Shown: positions 11,253 to 20,303 of the stretch, piece by piece | Position numbering within the stretch: the first letter of the stretch is position 1 | Layout: each line of letters starts with the position of its first letter | Assembly: GCA_020853815.1 (NCBI GenBank) | Contig: JADYYE010000090.1 | Span: forward strand, 1-64,000 | Direction: 5' to 3' | DNA from: Phycisphaerales bacterium | Lineage (GTDB): Bacteria; Planctomycetota; Phycisphaerae; Phycisphaerales; UBA1924 | DNA: 64,000 bases | The notes under the pieces: generated by a model | Database searches by the model: none | What the model was told of the DNA's origin: nothing | Seen by the model: the letters and a program-made list of their open reading frames with translations, nothing else | Translations under genes and position numbers: made by a program

Positions 11253-11346
11253 TGCGTCGGTAGTACACTGGTTGGGAGAACCGCCCGGCGCCAGGGGACG
11301 AACCCCAAGAGGGCGGCGGTCGGCGGACCGGGCGTAGTTGGCTGGT

Positions 11347-11438
11347 GGCTGGGTGTGGTGGCTGGGTGTGGTGGCTGGGTGTGGTGGCTGGGTGTGGTGG
11401 CTGGGTGTGGTGGCTGGGTGTGGTGGCTGGGTGTGGTG
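11347..11438. repeat. 13-bp minisatellite, seven tandem copies
   Basis: The unit GGCTGGGTGTGGT is repeated seven times with a constant 13-bp period and no mismatch within the core. It lies in the divergent region between pyrH (minus) and the vWA gene (plus), ending about 40 bp before the latter's start. It is strongly strand-asymmetric (G/T on plus), which favours slippage. Any reading through it gives a WVWWLGVVAGCGG-type artefact peptide. Confidence 0.95.
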
Positions 11439-11478: not shown

Positions 11479-12474
11479 ATGGCATCGACGATTCCAACCA
11501 CGGGCGGTGACAATCCGATCCTGAAGGCGACGGCGGGGCCGTTGCTGCGGACTTGGGCGTCGCGGATCTTGGTGGTGGCGTTCGCGGTGTCCGTGATTTT
11601 TCACTTGACGGGGCTGATGCTGGCGTCGGTGTATCGGCTGGGCCTGGGTGGCGGGCCGGGCGCGGGGACGGGGACCAGAGCTCCGGTCGAGTTTGCGGTC
11701 GTGAGCGAGGCGGAACTCGCCAGTCTGCAGCGCGGGGCGGAGGTGATCTCCGACGTGCCCGCGCCGATCGGCGACGGCGTGTCGAGCGAATCGCCCGGAA
11801 CGCGTCTGACGCTCGACGACATGAAGGCCTCGGACTTGCTCGGCGGCGGCGACGCGCCGGGCACGGCGTTCTCCGCGTCGGACATCAGCGGGAGCCTGGG
11901 CGACGGCGCGGTGGGGGCCGGCGCGGGCGGAGGGGGCGGTGGGGGCGGCGGCGCGAGCTTCTTCGGCGTCGAGGCCCAGGGCAATCGGTTCGCGTACATC
12001 GTGGACGTGTCGGGCTCGATGAGCGTGGGCGGCAAGCTGGAGGCGCTGCAGAAAGAACTGACGCAGTCGGTGAACACGCTGCTGGAGACGTCGGAGTTGG
12101 CGATCGTGCCGTTCTCGTCGCAGGCCGAGGTGCTGGGGTCCACGACCGGCAAGGCGACGTGGATCGACGCGAATGATCGGAACAAGAAGGGCGTGGTTCG
12201 GAACATCGCGACGCTGCGGTCGAACGGCGGGACCAATCCATCGCCGGCGTTCGTGCTGGTATTCTCGATGAAGCCGAGGCCGGACGCGATCTATTTCATG
12301 ACCGATGGCGAGTTTCCCGAGCAGATCGCGTCCGAGATCATGGCGCTGAATGCGGAGTACAAAGTCCCGATCCACTGCATCTGCTTTGTCAGCGACGGCG
12401 CGGCGGACATGATGAAAGTGATCGCGCAGAAGTCCGGCGGGACCTATACGTTCGTGCCGGGCCCAAGGCCATGA
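11479..12474 (+). CDS. Membrane-anchored vWA-domain protein, first gene of a coupled operon
   Basis: 331 residues. One membrane span at about residues 30-52 follows a short cytoplasmic start; a pro/gly-rich linker with a run of glycines (about 145-159) leads to a von Willebrand A domain. Its metal site is complete at the first position: D176-V-S-G-S-M-S, with later TNPSPA and FMTDGEFP strands supplying the other MIDAS loops. vWA domains bind ligands through a divalent metal; here the domain would face the periplasm or cell exterior. ATG 11479 is chosen because earlier in-frame codons translate the minisatellite. The stop overlaps the next start (ATGA). The function of the operon is unknown. 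Confidence 0.85.
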   Translation: MASTIPTTGGDNPILKATAGPLLRTWASRILVVAFAVSVIFHLTGLMLASVYRLGLGGGPGAGTGTRAPVEFAVVSEAELASLQRGAEVISDVPAPIGDGVSSESPGTRLTLDDMKASDLLGGGDAPGTAFSASDISGSLGDGAVGAGAGGGGGGGGGASFFGVEAQGNRFAYIVDVSGSMSVGGKLEALQKELTQSVNTLLETSELAIVPFSSQAEVLGSTTGKATWIDANDRNKKGVVRNIATLRSNGGTNPSPAFVLVFSMKPRPDAIYFMTDGEFPEQIASEIMALNAEYKVPIHCICFVSDGAADMMKVIAQKSGGTYTFVPGPRP

Positions 12475-13616
12475 CGGTAATCCTCGGCGTCATTTTTCTG
12501 GCGGGGTCGATGGCGCAGGTGACGCTGCGCGATGGTTCCCAGCCAGGATCGCCGGTCGAGGCGGTGTCGATCGAGGGCGTGCGCGTGGGCGGGGCGCTGC
12601 TGGGGCTCGATCGGGTGAAGTCGGTGGAGGGAGAGTTCGCTCGTGCGTGGGGCGAGGTGGCGGGGGCGGCGGACGAGGCGTGGCGGGTTCGGCAGCGATT
12701 CGAGCGCGGCGACCTGGCGGGCGCGGAAGTGATCGCCGAAGCGTTGCTCACGCGGCTGGGCGGAAAGCAGGGGCCGACGACGGCGATGGTGGCCGAGGCT
12801 TTGACGCGGGTGCGCGTGAAGCGTGGATCGCAGACCGGTGCGTTGGAATCGTGGCTGATGTGGTACGACGGCGGGAGCGAATCGAAGCCACTGCCGTCGA
12901 GCTTCGCGCCGGACCTGGCGTCACGGCGCGCGGTGCTCTCGGATCGCTGGCCGACGCTTTCGATCGACGGCGCGTCGGGATTGCTTTCGAGCTTGCCGCC
13001 GATCTGGATCAACGTGCCTTCGGTGCAAGCGTGGGTGCGAGCGGGCGAGAAGGAGATCTCGAGCGAGGCGCGGCGTTCGGCGGCGTACGAGCGGTTGTAT
13101 CGCGCGGCGGCGAGGTTCGAGGTCGATGGCACGCCGGTGGATATCGGCGGGCTTGATCTGAAGCTCGATGGGCCGAAGCTGGTGTCGGAGATCGTGCTTG
13201 CGCGGGCGGGCGACACGAACGAGCGAGAATCGGCGCGGCGTGACTTGTTGGAGAGGCTGGAAGGCTCGCCGCCGGCGTGGTTGGAGGCATGGGTGCGGGC
13301 CGCCATCGGTCGTTCGATGCTGAAGGAGGAAGACCCCGAGGTTCGTCGTCGCGGCGTGTTGCACTTGCTGCATGTGCCGGCGCGGCTTACTTCGGATTCG
13401 CCGTATCTGGCGGGGGTTGCACTGGCGGAGTCGGCGCGTGCGCTGCTGGAGTTAGGCGATCGTGACGGCGCAGAGGTGATTCGCGCGGAGTTGATGCGGG
13501 ACTATCCGGCGCATCCGGCGTTGGACTGGTGGGGCGTGCGTGATTGGCCGGCTCGCGGCGGTTCAAACAGCGTGGCCGCGCCCGCGGCCGGCGCACACGC
13601 CGGGGGCACGCCATGA
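12471..13616 (+). CDS. Exported protein of unknown function, second gene of the vWA operon
   Basis: 381 residues, beginning with a hydrophobic MTVILGVIFLAGSMAQ segment that looks like a short signal peptide. The body is helical with repeated ARAWxEV/ADEAW and RDLLERLE-type blocks and a late VALAESARALLELGDRDGAEV helix pair that resembles a single TPR. No family recognised. Start and stop both overlap neighbours by ATGA (12471-12474 and 13613-13616), so translation is coupled to the vWA gene before it and the TPR-like gene after it. Confidence 0.8.
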   Translation: MTVILGVIFLAGSMAQVTLRDGSQPGSPVEAVSIEGVRVGGALLGLDRVKSVEGEFARAWGEVAGAADEAWRVRQRFERGDLAGAEVIAEALLTRLGGKQGPTTAMVAEALTRVRVKRGSQTGALESWLMWYDGGSESKPLPSSFAPDLASRRAVLSDRWPTLSIDGASGLLSSLPPIWINVPSVQAWVRAGEKEISSEARRSAAYERLYRAAARFEVDGTPVDIGGLDLKLDGPKLVSEIVLARAGDTNERESARRDLLERLEGSPPAWLEAWVRAAIGRSMLKEEDPEVRRRGVLHLLHVPARLTSDSPYLAGVALAESARALLELGDRDGAEVIRAELMRDYPAHPALDWWGVRDWPARGGSNSVAAPAAGAHAGGTP

Positions 13617-16342
13617 CGCGCGCAGCCACGATAAGGCGGTGGATCCTGCTGGGCATCGTGGCCGGCGCGGCGATCGGCTTCAACGCGTCGACTGCATCGC
13701 CGCCCGGGGGTGACGAGGCGCTTGAGAGCTACCTGGAAAGTCGCGATCTCTCGACTCTCCTGGCGGCCCAACTGCGCGGGCGGCTGGCGACGGCGACGGG
13801 CGAAGCCCGCAACGAGATCGCGGAGCAGCTGGGGCGGGTGTATGTGCGGCAGATGTCGGCCGCGAAGACCCCCGACGAGCGGCGCGTCATCGAAGACGCG
13901 GCACGGGTGCTGCTCGAATCGATGCCCGAGTCTTCGGTGTTTGAGCTACGGATCGATTTCGCGAAGACCTCCTATCTTCGGGCCGAGGACCTGATCGAGC
14001 GATTCCGCGTGCGGATCGTGGGCGAGGCGCAGTTGCAGGAGGCGGATCGGCTCTTGCGTCTGATCACGCCGCAGTTCCAGGAGATCGCGACGAGGGTGGG
14101 GCACCGGATCGAGCTGCTCGAGCGCAAGGAGGCGGGGGCGCGTCAGGACGATCTGGAGGAGACCAAGGCGCAGCTGGCCGACGCGCGCCGGGTTCGCTCG
14201 CTGGCGCAGTACTACGCGGGCTGGTGCGGGTATTACGGCGCGATGCTGTCGGGCAACAAGAGCGCCGCGATGCGGGCGATGCAGGATTTCGGCTGGCTGC
14301 TGAACTCCGGCGGCGGAAAGATCCCCGAGATCGATCGGGTTCCGCAGGCGCTCCTGAGGTACGAGCATGTGGCGAGAGCGGCGGTGGGCGTCGCGATGTG
14401 CGCCTCGCTGCGTGACAACGACGTAGAGGCGATGCGATGGCTCGACCTGGTCGAATCGACCGACGGGATCTCGCCGGCGTTGCGGGCGGAGCTGCTGTCG
14501 CGTCGCATGGTGGTGTTGGGCGGTGCGAAGCGGTGGTCCGACCTGGAACTGCTGCTGAAGCGCCGGGCGGCGGATCGCAAGAAAGATTCGGCGCTGCTGA
14601 CGCCCTCGGAGGCGAGGCTGCTGGCGGTGCTGGCGCTGGACGCGGCGGCGGGCGACGGTGCGAGGCCCGGGCGCGCGCAGATCGAGACCCTCGCGCAGAT
14701 CGCGCTGGCGGAGTTGGTGTCGCAGGGGCGCGTGGCGGACGTGCTCGACATCGTCAACCGCTACGGGACCAACCCCATCGGCCAGGACGGGTTCATCGTC
14801 GTCTATGTGCGGGGCCTGCAGTCGTATGAGCGGGCGCGCGAGGCGCACAGGAAGCTCGATCCCGGCGCGACCGATCCCGTCAAGGACGACGCGGCCGCCA
14901 ACCTGTATCGGCAGGCGGCGGAGGTGCTGTCGGCGGCGACGGTCGCGTCGGACGCGCTGCGCTACGCCAACGATTCGGGGCGGGCGTCAATGCTGCGCGG
15001 CCTGGCGTTGTTCTATGCGGGCGACCTTTCGCGTGCGGCGGAGATTTTCACGGGCGTGGGCAATGGCGCGACCGACGCGAAGCTGAAGGAGGAGGCGCTG
15101 TGGTACGCGATCGTGTCGCTCGATCGCGCGGTGGAGGAGGGGAAGAAGTCGCTGGTCGGCGAGCGTGATCGCGTCGCGACGCTCTTTCTGACGACGTTCC
15201 CCGCGTCGCCCAACGCGGCCAAGCTGCTCCTGCGTCGCGCCGGCGACGGGCTGATTCCCGACGCGCGGGTGGTCGACATCCTGCTCGCCACGCCGACCGA
15301 TTCGCCGATGTTCGAATCGGCGCGGCGCCAGGCGGCGTTTGTGCTCTTCAGGATGCAACGGCGCGCTCCCGGCGATCGCGTGCTGACGCGGCGCTTCATG
15401 GACGTTGCGACCGAGGCGCTCTCGCCCTTGATCGTGCAGTGCCGCCTGTCGCCCAAGGACACCGAGCTGCCGACGGCCGCGCTCCGGCTGGTCCGCCAGA
15501 TCGCGGAGGTCGGCCTTTCGGCGTCGCCGCCCGAGGTGAGCACGGTCGAACGGGTCCTGGCGCAGTGGACCGACCTGGCGGATGAGCTTGGATTGGGCGG
15601 GAGCGGGGCGGCGGAAGAACTCGCATATCGGCGCTTGCAGATCGCGTTGGTGCAGGGCGATGTGGACGGCGCGGTGGCGGCGTTCGACAAGCTGGGGCCG
15701 AGCCAATTCCGCAAGAGCGCGGAGCGGCTGCTGTACAAGCACGCGGTGAAGGCGTGGGAGGGCCAGCCGCGGTCGGTCGAGGCGGCGCGGGGCGTGGTTC
15801 GGTTCGGCGTGCCGGTCGCGGAGCAACTGGTCGCCGGAGATTCGGCGTTTCAGCAGCCCGTGACGCTGGGCGTCTGCAACGATGTGGCGGCGGCCGCGGC
15901 GGTCGTGTTCGAAGAGGCCAAGGACCTGGCGATGCGCGACGCCGCGATCAAGATCGATCGCAGGTCATTCGAGGGCGGCACACCCTCGGCGACGGCGGTG
16001 CGGCGCTTGGCGCGGTTGAGCGAGCACGCGGGAGACGCGGCGCTGGCGCTGCAATGCTGGCAGCGAATCCTGGGCGGCGTACCGGGTGGATCGGGCGACT
16101 GGTTCGAGGCACGCTACGAAACGCTGCGGCTCATCGCGGCGTCGGAGCCCGAAAAGGCACGGCAGATCTGCGAGCAATACCGGGTGCTGTACCCGGACTG
16201 GGGATCGAAGCCCTGGAACGACAAGATCCGAGAGATCGCGGCGCGCTTGGGTGTCGCGGGCGATCCGGGCGCGAGTGAGGGCGCCACGGGCGCGGGGAGC
16301 AGCGGCGGCGGGGTGACGAGCGGCGGAGGCTCGAAAAAATGA
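13613..16342 (+). CDS. Large exported alpha-solenoid (TPR-like) protein, third gene of the vWA operon
   Basis: 909 residues. An N-terminal signal-type segment (RRWILLGIVAGAAIGF, about residues 8-25) is followed by helix-rich repeats, with tetratricopeptide-like pairs most visible around residues 430-500 (LRGLALFYAGDLSRAAEIF) and 830-900 (RLARLSEHAGDAALALQCWQ). It ends in a glycine/serine-rich tail. Such solenoids scaffold protein complexes; no catalytic motif is seen. ATG 13613 overlaps the preceding stop; the final TGA overlaps the next ATG. Length and repeats vary too much to name a family. Confidence 0.82.
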   Translation: MTRAATIRRWILLGIVAGAAIGFNASTASPPGGDEALESYLESRDLSTLLAAQLRGRLATATGEARNEIAEQLGRVYVRQMSAAKTPDERRVIEDAARVLLESMPESSVFELRIDFAKTSYLRAEDLIERFRVRIVGEAQLQEADRLLRLITPQFQEIATRVGHRIELLERKEAGARQDDLEETKAQLADARRVRSLAQYYAGWCGYYGAMLSGNKSAAMRAMQDFGWLLNSGGGKIPEIDRVPQALLRYEHVARAAVGVAMCASLRDNDVEAMRWLDLVESTDGISPALRAELLSRRMVVLGGAKRWSDLELLLKRRAADRKKDSALLTPSEARLLAVLALDAAAGDGARPGRAQIETLAQIALAELVSQGRVADVLDIVNRYGTNPIGQDGFIVVYVRGLQSYERAREAHRKLDPGATDPVKDDAAANLYRQAAEVLSAATVASDALRYANDSGRASMLRGLALFYAGDLSRAAEIFTGVGNGATDAKLKEEALWYAIVSLDRAVEEGKKSLVGERDRVATLFLTTFPASPNAAKLLLRRAGDGLIPDARVVDILLATPTDSPMFESARRQAAFVLFRMQRRAPGDRVLTRRFMDVATEALSPLIVQCRLSPKDTELPTAALRLVRQIAEVGLSASPPEVSTVERVLAQWTDLADELGLGGSGAAEELAYRRLQIALVQGDVDGAVAAFDKLGPSQFRKSAERLLYKHAVKAWEGQPRSVEAARGVVRFGVPVAEQLVAGDSAFQQPVTLGVCNDVAAAAAVVFEEAKDLAMRDAAIKIDRRSFEGGTPSATAVRRLARLSEHAGDAALALQCWQRILGGVPGGSGDWFEARYETLRLIAASEPEKARQICEQYRVLYPDWGSKPWNDKIREIAARLGVAGDPGASEGATGAGSSGGGVTSGGGSKK

Positions 16343-19185
16343 GCGACTCTCGCCACGTCGAATCGCTCGTGAAGTTTTTGGGCGAGGCGGCCGCGCCCGG
16401 GCACGCGTTCGCCGTGCTGGGGTTGGAAAAGCTCGCGCACGCCGACGCGGTGGTTCTGCGGGCGCTGAACGAGCAGCTTTCCAAGGTCGCGGCGCACCCG
16501 CAGAACTCGACGCCGGAGGCGGACGAGGTGCGCATGATCCTGCACACGGCCGCGGCGCAGCTCATGTCCAAGCGTCGGAGCGCGGAGCAGGCGATCGCAT
16601 CCGGCGCGAACAGCGGCGTGAAGGGTGATGGAGGCCGGGGGCAGCCATTGCCGCGCGGGCTCATCGCGCCCGTGGTGCTGGCGGAGATGCGGGTGATCGT
16701 GGCACGCCACGGCGGGATGACGCGCGAGGCGATGGGGGAGTTGTCGGCGCTGGGCGAGCGGGAGAATGTCGAGCTCGCGGAGTTGATGGAGGCGCTCGCT
16801 TCGCCGCTGCGGATGGAAGAGCCGGAACCGGCGACGCCCGCGCCGCGCGGACTCTCGCGGCCGAGCGCGGGCCCGGATGAGCCGGCGCTTCGGCGGGAGG
16901 AGATCGTTCGCGCCGGTGAGATGCCCGAGGACATTGATCCCGCGGCGCGGACGCTCAAGAACGCGATCTTGATCGCGGGGATCGCGGTGGCCGCCCTTCT
17001 GACGATGGCGGGCGTCGTGGTGGCGATCGTGCGGTCATCGAGCGCGCCGCCGGCCAACGTCGCGGCGGAGTCGGCGGGCGGAGCGCAGGAGACGCCAGAC
17101 GCGCCGCGGGTTGAGTATTTCCCCGCACCATCCGAGAGTGAGCGCGAGGCGAGAGCGAAGGAGGCCGCGAAGGCGAAGGAGGCGGCCAGGCCCGCGCCGC
17201 TGGCGGCGGGGGACGCGCCGGCGCTGGTGCATCAGCTTGGCACATGCCTGGAAGAGATCAACGTCGATGCGGCGGCGGCGACGGCGCGGTTCGGGGCTGT
17301 GCTGGGAAAGCTCGCGGAGTGCTGGGACCAGCTTGCGTCGGACCAATTGCTGGCGGCGCAGGACCGGATTGTCGAGTTCGTGTATCGCGTTGGGAGCGAT
17401 GCCTCACGCGCGGACGAGCTTCTGCGGGCGCTGGGCGCGATGTCGGATGCTTCGCTTGGCGCGAAGGCAATTTCCAAGCGCGCGTTTGCGGCGGGGATGT
17501 TCGCGAGGCTCTCGCGCGAGAGCGATCTGCCCAGCGCGATCTCGGCGGAGGTGGTGGCGCGGGTGTCGGCGCTGGGGCTGTCCGGTGGAGGCACGTTCGG
17601 GGCCGGAGCGCGGGCCGCGATGACGCGGGCCTCGATTGATTTGGTTCGGGCGCTGTCGGCGAGCGCGGGACCGGAGGCCGGTGGTCCGGCGAACGGGTCG
17701 CCGGCGGGGGCGGGCGATGATCCGTGGGCGGCGTGGTTGCGGCTGGTGGACGCGGTTTCCGGCGCGGACGAGGCGGTGCGAGAGCGGATGATCGCGGGCG
17801 CGATCGAGTCGGTTCTCTTCGATCTACCCGAACCCCTGAACCCCGCGGGAGAGAGCGTGGTGCGACGGCTCATCGCCAAGCTCTCATGGCGTGAGGACAG
17901 CCCGGCGAGGCCGCGGGTGCTCGGCTGGTTCGGCGATCCGCGCATCACGCCCGAGGACCTTTCGCTTCTCACGAGCGTGATCGCGGAGAGCAGCGCGCCC
18001 GGCGTCGATCGAACCATGGTGCTGGCGCGCGACGCCGATCCGGCGCAGCGCGATCGCCTGCGCGAGGTGTATGAGGCGGCGTGGGGCCAGGGCGCCGCCC
18101 GCCCCAAGGATGAGTTGATCGCCGGGTGGATCAACGTCGCCCGGCAGCACGTCGAGAGCGCGGATTCGACGGCGACTCCCGGCGAGTCGCTGGCGCGAGC
18201 GGTGATCCTTTCGCGGCTCAACGAGGCCGCGGCGAGGATATGGATCGGCGAGGATGCCGAGCCCGCGGAGATCGTCAAGGCGCCCGAGGCGACGGTGACA
18301 AACCTGCTCGCGCGCGGTGGCGCGGGGAGCGGTTCGCTCGCCGGCGACGCGGGCGGCGAGTGGGCGTTGCGGTACATCTCAGCCAAGGCTCAACCTTCGG
18401 AACGCTTGCGACTTCTGGGCGAGCTTGCGACGCGCGATTCGATCGGGGCGGCGGACGCGGAAGTGCTGATGGTGGAGGCGATCCGCGGGAGTTCGTCGTC
18501 GATCCGGCGTGCCGCGGATTCGGCGGTGCGCCGACTGGCGGGCACGCCGCAGATCGTCAACGCGATGCTTGAGCAGGCCTACCTCTTGCCCAAGACCAGC
18601 GAGGTGGTGGACCTCGCGGAATTGATCTCGTCGTCGTCGCTCCCGCCGACGCGTGATGTCGGGTGGCGGGCGGCGGTTCGGCGTGCGCTGGTCGAGCGGC
18701 TTCTTCAGTTGCTCGCGTCCAAGGGCGACGACGGGGCGATCGACGCGCTCACGGAGCGACTGACGTTGACCTACGCGGGGCGGCAGGTGGCGGCGACGAC
18801 AGATCGGTTGCCCCCGGACTCGGCGGGCGGGGCCCCGATCGAGGCGCTGCGGAAATCGCTCTCGGCGTGGGATCGGCTGGCGCGATCGCTGACGGCGTCG
18901 GGGCGCGAGCCGCTGCGGCTTGACCAGGTTGAACGCCGGGCCGAGGCCAGGGCCAAGAACGCCGGCGGGATTGTTCAGAAGTTCGCGGCCGACCAGGTAA
19001 CGCTTGCCGAGACGATGGCGTACGCGATCGCGTGCGAGCGACCAGCGCGGTCGGGCGAGATCGCGCGGGTGCTCGAGGAGTTGTCGACGCGGAGGCGCAC
19101 CGCAGAGCATGTGATGACCCAGCTGCGCGACGGCGAGCGTGCGATGCTGGAGCTGTGGATCATCCGGCTGGAGGGCGGGCGATGA
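16339..19185 (+). CDS. Single-span membrane protein with large C-terminal helical domain, fourth gene of the vWA operon
   Basis: 948 residues. Residues 1-150 are probably cytoplasmic and helical (MSDSRHVESLVKFLGEAAAP start, charged). A proline-rich stretch precedes one membrane span at about 205-230 (LIAGIAVAALLTMAGVVVAIV), then an Ala/Glu-rich linker (EREARAKEAAKAKEAARP) and about 650 residues of HEAT/TPR-like helices outside the membrane. No enzyme motif found. It shares ATGA overlaps at both ends. The N-in topology by positive residues is an inference; it could link a cytoplasmic module to the exported solenoid encoded just upstream. Confidence 0.8.
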   Translation: MSDSRHVESLVKFLGEAAAPGHAFAVLGLEKLAHADAVVLRALNEQLSKVAAHPQNSTPEADEVRMILHTAAAQLMSKRRSAEQAIASGANSGVKGDGGRGQPLPRGLIAPVVLAEMRVIVARHGGMTREAMGELSALGERENVELAELMEALASPLRMEEPEPATPAPRGLSRPSAGPDEPALRREEIVRAGEMPEDIDPAARTLKNAILIAGIAVAALLTMAGVVVAIVRSSSAPPANVAAESAGGAQETPDAPRVEYFPAPSESEREARAKEAAKAKEAARPAPLAAGDAPALVHQLGTCLEEINVDAAAATARFGAVLGKLAECWDQLASDQLLAAQDRIVEFVYRVGSDASRADELLRALGAMSDASLGAKAISKRAFAAGMFARLSRESDLPSAISAEVVARVSALGLSGGGTFGAGARAAMTRASIDLVRALSASAGPEAGGPANGSPAGAGDDPWAAWLRLVDAVSGADEAVRERMIAGAIESVLFDLPEPLNPAGESVVRRLIAKLSWREDSPARPRVLGWFGDPRITPEDLSLLTSVIAESSAPGVDRTMVLARDADPAQRDRLREVYEAAWGQGAARPKDELIAGWINVARQHVESADSTATPGESLARAVILSRLNEAAARIWIGEDAEPAEIVKAPEATVTNLLARGGAGSGSLAGDAGGEWALRYISAKAQPSERLRLLGELATRDSIGAADAEVLMVEAIRGSSSSIRRAADSAVRRLAGTPQIVNAMLEQAYLLPKTSEVVDLAELISSSSLPPTRDVGWRAAVRRALVERLLQLLASKGDDGAIDALTERLTLTYAGRQVAATTDRLPPDSAGGAPIEALRKSLSAWDRLARSLTASGREPLRLDQVERRAEARAKNAGGIVQKFAADQVTLAETMAYAIACERPARSGEIARVLEELSTRRRTAEHVMTQLRDGERAMLELWIIRLEGGR

Positions 19186-20303
19186 AGCATGATCGACTTT
19201 TCATCGGCGTGCTCCTGCTGCTCGCCCTGGGTGGGCGAGCGACCGCGCAATCCGCCGAGCCGCCGAAGCAACGCGAGATCGAGCGAGCCGCGGGCACGCC
19301 AGTGTTGCCGACGAGTTCTCAGAGCTCGCAACCTGCGACGCCGCAGCCCGCGGCTTCCGCGCCGGCGTCGTGGCGCGGCGACGGCGTCTTGACCGAGGAG
19401 ATTCTTGCGAGGCTCACGCTGATCTCGCCGGGCGACCCCGAGTCGCTGCTGCGCGCGGGCGAGGATTTTGCGGCGATGGGCTCGCCGCTGTCGGTGCGGG
19501 TGGCGAGGCGGATACTGTCGGGGGCGATCGAGGTGGACCGCGCTCGGGGCGGGGGGCGCGTGGCCGCCGGCGCGTGCTTGCTTCTCGCGGAGCTTTCAAC
19601 CAGCGAGCCCGACCGGCGCTGGTTCGCGGCGCTGGCGCGGGCGATGGAAGCGGGGGCGGTCGGTCGGTCGTGGCTGCGCCCGGGCGATGCCGGATACAAC
19701 GCCGAGGCGGCGTACAACGCGGCCTGCGTGGTCGGGCTTGTTCGCGCGGGCGACGGCCTGGCGGCGCGGCAGCTCATGAACGAACCCGGCGTGCGCCAGG
19801 TTCTGCTCGATCACGAGCGGTTGCTGAGCACGATCGGCGAGCCTGGCGGGCTGGCGTATCTGGAGCGTGAGGCGGGGAAGTGGCCTTGCCCGGAGTGCCG
19901 CAACGACCGCGTCGTGCGCACCGTGGTTGATCGTCAGGCGCAGTACAAGCTGTGCCCGACGTGCAACGGCAACCCCGGGCCGTCGCTGGGCGATGACGCG
20001 CTCATCCTGCAATTGCGGCTGGAGGCCCGGCTGCTGCATGGCGTCCAGCGGTCGTGGGCGGCGCAGCTCGCGGCGGACCACGGCCTGCCGCTCGATGATC
20101 CCGACCCCGAGGAACTGTCGAAGGTGCTCGGCTTTGACAGCCGGGCGTTCGTCTTCAAGGACGGCGGTTGGTACCGCGTGGATGGCTCGCAGCCCGGGCC
20201 GGTTTCGCCCTTCGCGCCCAAGCCCGCGGAAGGTGGGGCACCCCCCGGCGACACGAAGCCGGAAACGCCCGTCAACTCTCCCGAAGAGACGGCAAGCGGA
20301 TGA
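19182..20303 (+). CDS. Exported protein with a zinc-ribbon-like CPEC/CPTC pair, last gene of the vWA operon
   Basis: 373 residues. A clear signal peptide (LFIGVLLLLALGGRATAQ, residues 6-23) leads to a helical domain with AEAAYNAACVVGLVRAGDGL repeats, then CPEC near residue 235 and CPTC near 258, spaced like a zinc ribbon, and an acidic/proline tail. A metal-binding or redox role for the cysteines in an exported protein is unproven. ATG 19182 overlaps the previous stop by four bases, ending the coupled five-gene unit. Confidence 0.8.
   Translation: MKHDRLFIGVLLLLALGGRATAQSAEPPKQREIERAAGTPVLPTSSQSSQPATPQPAASAPASWRGDGVLTEEILARLTLISPGDPESLLRAGEDFAAMGSPLSVRVARRILSGAIEVDRARGGGRVAAGACLLLAELSTSEPDRRWFAALARAMEAGAVGRSWLRPGDAGYNAEAAYNAACVVGLVRAGDGLAARQLMNEPGVRQVLLDHERLLSTIGEPGGLAYLEREAGKWPCPECRNDRVVRTVVDRQAQYKLCPTCNGNPGPSLGDDALILQLRLEARLLHGVQRSWAAQLAADHGLPLDDPDPEELSKVLGFDSRAFVFKDGGWYRVDGSQPGPVSPFAPKPAEGGAPPGDTKPETPVNSPEETASG

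Follow-up and report, generated by a model that had tools for sequence, protein, structure and literature searches.

A conserved planctomycete operon around a membrane vWA protein: probable transducer and periplasmic partners of a proton-driven trans-envelope machine with its motor encoded in trans

Five genes (A to E) lie on the forward strand between positions 11479 and 20303 of a 64,000-nucleotide stretch of a Phycisphaerales bacterium genome (GenBank assembly GCA_020853815.1, contig JADYYE010000090.1, positions 1 to 64,000; here called the window, and its genome G000). Each gene overlaps the next by the four bases ATGA (at 12471, 13613, 16339, and 19182); the sequence was read at all four junctions and agrees with the sequence-only reading of this DNA, which had described five open reading frames coupled in this way. 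A topology check gave exported-type N-termini for B, C, and E and a single span for D, also as that reading had it; no conserved lipobox was seen when the N-termini of B, C, and E were inspected. The operon is flanked by pyrH/frr and by a MetG-beta-like gene. The gap between pyrH and gene A contains a perfect 13-bp tandem repeat (TGGTGGCTGGGTG, 7.4 copies, 100%, positions 11343 to 11438), whereas in five relatives inspected no repeat of this type precedes A. Feature coordinates are listed in Table 1.

Table 1. Positions of the operon genes, their main motifs and domains, and the relocated motor genes (window coordinates unless another locus is given).
Feature	Position	Strand	Basis or remark
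Gene A, predicted vWA transducer, 331 aa	11479..12474	+	Pfam VWA_3, 5e-10
S38-x3-H42 codons in the TM of A	11590..11604	+	Ser-His half of the TonB/TolA SHLS motif; invariant in homologues
Metal-site DxSxS of A (D176-S180)	12004..12018	+	Invariant; completed by T252 (12232) and D276 (12304)
Gene B, exported, without known family, 381 aa	12471..13616	+	29-homologue alignment
B/C ATGA junction	13613..13616	+	Site of the motor trio (~1.5 kb) in relatives; trio missing in the window
Gene C, exported, predicted TPR superhelix, 909 aa	13613..16342	+	AF2 model, PDB matches
Gene D, membrane protein, 948 aa	16339..19185	+	Topology, model, hhalign
J-like domain of D, residues ~21-88	16399..16602	+	HPQ where J-proteins have HPD
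TM helix of D, residues 201-233	16939..17037	+	Topology, model
Gene E, exported, two CxxC pairs, 373 aa	19182..20303	+	ORF and alignment
CxxC...CxxC of E (C236, C239, C258, C261)	19887..19964	+	Probable zinc site
Operon-type motor trio of the window genome	G000:C48, locus L139 5737-7492	-	Gene trees

The D protein is present in 43 of 61 relatives; 40 of these 43 loci were fetched, and A to E were located in them with iterated profiles. Wherever the contig was long enough, the order A-B-(motor)-C-D-E was unbroken and on a single strand. Almost all of 41 loci have four-base overlaps (ATGA, GTGA, or TTGA) at A/B, C/D, and D/E. Gene pyrH is the divergent neighbor of A in 33 of 33 loci examined, and a MetG-beta-like gene lies downstream of the operon in 18. 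The locus is near-universal in the family, small-genome metagenome-assembled genomes (MAGs) included. When 392 genomes of the phylum were searched with the C profile, full-length matches turned up in additional families of the order and in one family of another class, and the whole gene order is kept in these more distant loci (L177 to L181 and L191 to L194), the other class included. Named matches were Phycisphaerales/Phycisphaerae MAGs; those in Pirellulaceae were weak C-tail matches. The sequence-only reading had asked whether the five genes co-occur and had named their separation in relatives as grounds for dropping it; they were never found apart, so those grounds fail. This synteny supports the view that A to E make up a single envelope module with the vWA protein at its center, conserved between families of the order and also in a second class.

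Most loci with B and C on one contig have about 1.5 kb between these two genes, and this insert encodes one MotA/TolQ/ExbB protein and two ExbD/TolR proteins (Pfam matches). From the gene sets of relatives, the ancestral operon is reconstructed as eight genes: vWA (A), B, ExbB/TolQ, ExbD/TolR, ExbD/TolR, TPR solenoid (C), membrane protein (D), and zinc-site protein (E). The insert is missing at the operon in the window’s genus and in five other genera. Four ExbB-family and five ExbD-family genes are present in the window genome, among them a trio on contig C48 that nests inside the in-operon clade both in the ExbB tree and in the two ExbD branches of the ExbD tree, where it clusters with those of two congeners and G015 (support, 98 to 100). 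Given this nesting, the trio moved out of the operon as a block in the window’s genus and was kept elsewhere in the genome. An assembly gap at the operon was considered and rejected, since the genome has the trio at C48. The relocated trio is intact, with its proton-binding Asp residues; the transmembrane (TM) Asp is kept in both ExbDs among all in-operon ExbDs inspected, and the TM1 Ser of ExbB, the contact of the transducer His, is found in 30/30. The ExbBs aligned here do not conserve the Trp through which E. coli ExbB touches its transducer. Next to the relocated trio, downstream on the same strand, is a gene (L139 3708-5690) whose 660-aa product is exported and matches TPR weakly; no such gene is evident beside the trio in L140.

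Four genomes (G018, G007, G022, and G033) form one clade in the concatenated A-E tree, and nowhere in them was an orthologous operon-type trio found. They hold only a paralogous trio, so the original motor has been lost in this clade. An assembly gap was rejected here as well; the four genomes are 92 to 98% complete, lack the trio alike, and form one clade. The Ser-His of A is kept in all four (see below), so its motor partner there would be a paralogue, or the motif would have another role. In the window genome, the paralogous ExbB-ExbD-ExbD set lies at L147 5928-7731 (G000:C101); the sole trio of the four-genome clade is orthologous to this set. Three loci from other planctomycete families (L186, L188, and L195) have ExbB-ExbD-ExbD followed by a large C-like TPR protein, and no A homologue of the operon type was detected in them.

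Protein A has a short cytosolic N-terminus, a single TM helix (about residues 30 to 50; peak at residue 30), a Gly-rich linker of ~110 residues (~52 to 160), and a C-terminal vWA domain (Pfam VWA_3, residues 174 to 325). The first description, a membrane-anchored vWA protein with an intact DxSxS metal site, is borne out by this single TM and by D176, S178, S180, T252, and D276, which are invariant across 32 aligned homologues. Equally invariant in that alignment, at a mean column identity of 26%, are S38 and H42 of the TM helix. Ser-x3-His is also present in 10 more distant homologues, including some from another class (42/42 in all), and stays invariant in lineages without a linked motor. In E. 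coli, TonB Ser16/His20 and TolA Ser18/His22 contact ExbB and TolQ, respectively, in cryo-EM structures (PMC12215075). The Leu and second Ser of SHLS are absent from A of the window (A49 and R53 stand there), and this rear half is reported to be less conserved in Ton too (PMC12215075).

Force transducers with a TM Ser-x3-His, a linker of ~100 residues, and a C-terminal vWA domain have been proposed in the PVC group, Planctomycetes included; their genes lie near one tolQ-like gene, two tolR-like genes, and a gene for a TPR protein (Williams-Jones et al. 2025, PMC12204202). Protein A shares the single TM with Ser-x3-His, the linker, and the vWA C-terminus, and it is therefore assigned to this class by every sequence feature testable here. 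The linked TPR gene corresponds to C, and the tolQ-like and two tolR-like genes are found in relatives’ operons and, for the window, elsewhere in the genome. Here, unlike in that class, the vWA gene comes first and the TPR gene follows the motor genes; B, the J-like D, the CxxC protein E, and a motor outside the operon are not mentioned in that paper. Across the phylum, proteins combining vWA with Ser-x3-His are frequent: most of 30 additional loci show the combination, and many of these have an ExbB gene no more than 1.5 kb away. A PDB sequence search with A returned low-complexity matches only, which were discarded. In L177 to L181, from another class, A carries an extra cytosolic CxxC...CxxC stretch, resembling a zinc ribbon, ahead of the TM.

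None of the partners had at first been placed in a recognizable family, and Pfam/NCBIfam naming gave no significant match for B, D, or E. For B this description stands (32% mean column identity over 29 homologues; weak TPR matches in a few), and for C and D it does not. The AF2 model of C (pLDDT, 86.8) indicates a TPR superhelix: its best Foldseek match was the TPR protein Ski3 (E, 4e-8), and VIA gave Z 17.3 against an LGN-type TPR over 305 residues, on a scale where helical repeats reach high Z easily. Protein D looks like a degenerate J-like cytosolic domain, one TM helix, and a periplasmic ARM/HEAT-like solenoid. Its N-terminal ~70 residues aligned with real J domains of relatives at an hhalign probability of 87% (score, 35.7), compared with a best score of 23.1 in 200 column shuffles (0/200 as high); no stretch of A, B, C, or E scored above 17.7. 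The model of D has the helix II-loop-helix III pattern with HPQ in the loop. The HPD motif is degenerate (HPQ in D of the window; in many relatives, too, HP is not followed by Asp), so D is named J-like and not a J-protein; the best Pfam DnaJ match in D reached 15.5 bits against a cut-off of 27.8. The periplasmic part is helical in the model, with middling ARM/HEAT-like matches only. With the whole of D as query, Foldseek gave no match below E 0.01 and VIA-align reached Z ≤9.9; J structures are missing among these matches because the solenoid takes up all the places. The D homologue of L190 opens with a sequence that is more clearly J-like, though below the Pfam cut-off.

Two CxxC pairs in E form a probable zinc site, with C239 and C258 invariant and C236 and C261 conserved in >90% of 28 homologues. 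In L193, D and E are fused as one 1,418-aa ORF, which argues for direct contact between the two and, by the single span of D, would place E in the periplasm behind it. The pairs are lost in the fused D-E of L193 and partly lost in L069.

Taken as a whole, the operon probably encodes the transducer and periplasmic partners of a proton motive force-driven trans-envelope machine of the TonB/TolA type, its motor being encoded in trans in the window’s genus. From gene content, synteny, motifs, topology, and motor kinship, we infer a complex, a force path, a ligand, and a purpose along the following lines. The motor, supplied from the other locus, would consist of an ExbB/TolQ channel and two ExbD/TolR subunits that differ from each other; it would grip the TM helix of A through S38 and H42 and move A by proton flow, and the Gly-rich linker would carry the force to the vWA head. 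The head would use its metal site to bind a ligand in the periplasm, for which the TPR superhelix C and E are the most likely carriers. Protein D may serve as a membrane-anchored scaffold, with a J-like docking arm in the cytosol and a solenoid in the periplasm on which E is docked. The likely job is work on the outer membrane or peptidoglycan layer, probably outer-envelope maintenance of the kind done by Tol-Pal elsewhere. The sequence-only reading had proposed an envelope complex built around a vWA ligand-binding head; a conserved envelope module is what was found, but the vWA protein looks like a motor-driven transducer and more than a ligand-binding head, and the ancestral module also includes the motor trio. 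Against the preferred reading stand the missing rear half of SHLS in A, the unconserved Trp of ExbB, the clade that keeps Ser-His with no orthologous trio, and the lack of any outer-membrane component among the operon products.

The machine proposed here resembles TonB-ExbBD and TolA-TolQR in motor type, Ser-His contact in the TM, and topology. Unlike TonB and TolA, A has a vWA head in place of their C-terminal domain, the motor has two different ExbD proteins, and the operon contains no TonB_C, TolB, or TonB-dependent receptor partner. Bat (BatABCDE) operons likewise join a membrane vWA protein and a TPR protein; the present module differs in having ExbB/ExbD and a motor-contact motif in the TM of A and in lacking BatD. 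No MoxR ATPase match was obtained among the five products, and the flanking genes are those given above.

If the operon encoded a static scaffold, the vWA domain would be a metal-dependent adhesion head on a fixed anchor with TPR/solenoid partners, the Ser-His pair a relic, and no force would be exerted in the window’s genus. Such a scaffold needs only the intact metal site and the protein-binding repeats of the five products, and the motor trio is indeed absent from the operon in the window’s genus and from the genome in one clade; we nevertheless hold it unlikely, as S38 and H42 are invariant in lineages without a linked trio and the relocated trio has been kept intact, down to the proton-binding Asp. 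A vWA-centered assembly or chaperone system akin to Bat/MoxR or to a split J-protein, with D and E as DnaJ-like halves across the membrane that load or fold envelope proteins and A as substrate receptor, would account for the J-like domain of D, for the fusion of D and E, and for the E protein of L190, which has a DnaJ-type CxxCxGxG stretch (DnaJ Cys-rich Pfam, 0.018, below the cut-off). This is very unlikely: the J-like domain has HPQ or other variants in place of HPD, the Cys-rich pairs sit in an exported protein and are not always kept (L193 and L069), the module has no MoxR or Hsp70 gene, and the motor genes and Ser-x3-His would be left unexplained.

An engine for gliding or surface motility, with the vWA head linking the force of the motor to adhesion at the surface as in Agl-Glt with CglB in Myxococcus, is named as one possibility in PMC12204202. 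Agl-Glt of Myxococcus xanthus does have the same motor composition of one TolQ-like and two TolR-like proteins (AglR, AglQ, and AglS; PMC3169522), together with TPR periplasmic proteins and a vWA protein. That protein, CglB, is however an outer-membrane surface adhesin, and A is a TM transducer; no Glt homologue was detected among the five products, the best match (GltJ, to D, E 0.86) being rejected as insignificant. The operon encodes no outer-membrane beta-barrel or lipoprotein, and the near-universal presence of the locus in the family suits housekeeping better, which makes a motility engine extremely improbable.

Omp85 is present in G000, G002, G018, and G005, so these cells are taken to be diderm. 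TonB_C was not detected in the same four genomes, in a search that a divergent TolA domain would escape; G043 has two TonB_C domains, which adjoin other motors. No TolB_N was found in five genomes searched, with E. coli, Caulobacter, and Bacteroides positive as controls. Three OmpA-domain proteins are encoded elsewhere in G000 (one beside a MotA-like gene) and none in the operon. A bolder version of the preferred reading, which we regard as doubtful, is that the transducer machine takes the place of both Tol-Pal and Ton in the clade: a proton-driven machine with a vWA head and, in the cytosol, a J-like sensor arm, already present in the ancestor of the phylum, with its motor in trans and a paralogous ExbB-ExbD-ExbD set swapped in by one clade.

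The vWA force-transducer class was already known by prediction (PMC12204202); new here are the full conserved gene set, the predicted architecture of D, E as a putative periplasmic partner of D, and the finding that the motor has moved or been lost in lineages that keep an intact transducer. The class predicted in 2025 thereby gains a fixed, phylum-deep set of partners. A motor that moved in one lineage and was lost in another, while the motor-contact motif stayed invariant, amounts to a natural experiment. The operon is a concrete, testable candidate for energizing the outer membrane in a diderm planctomycete clade without a recognizable TonB or TolB.
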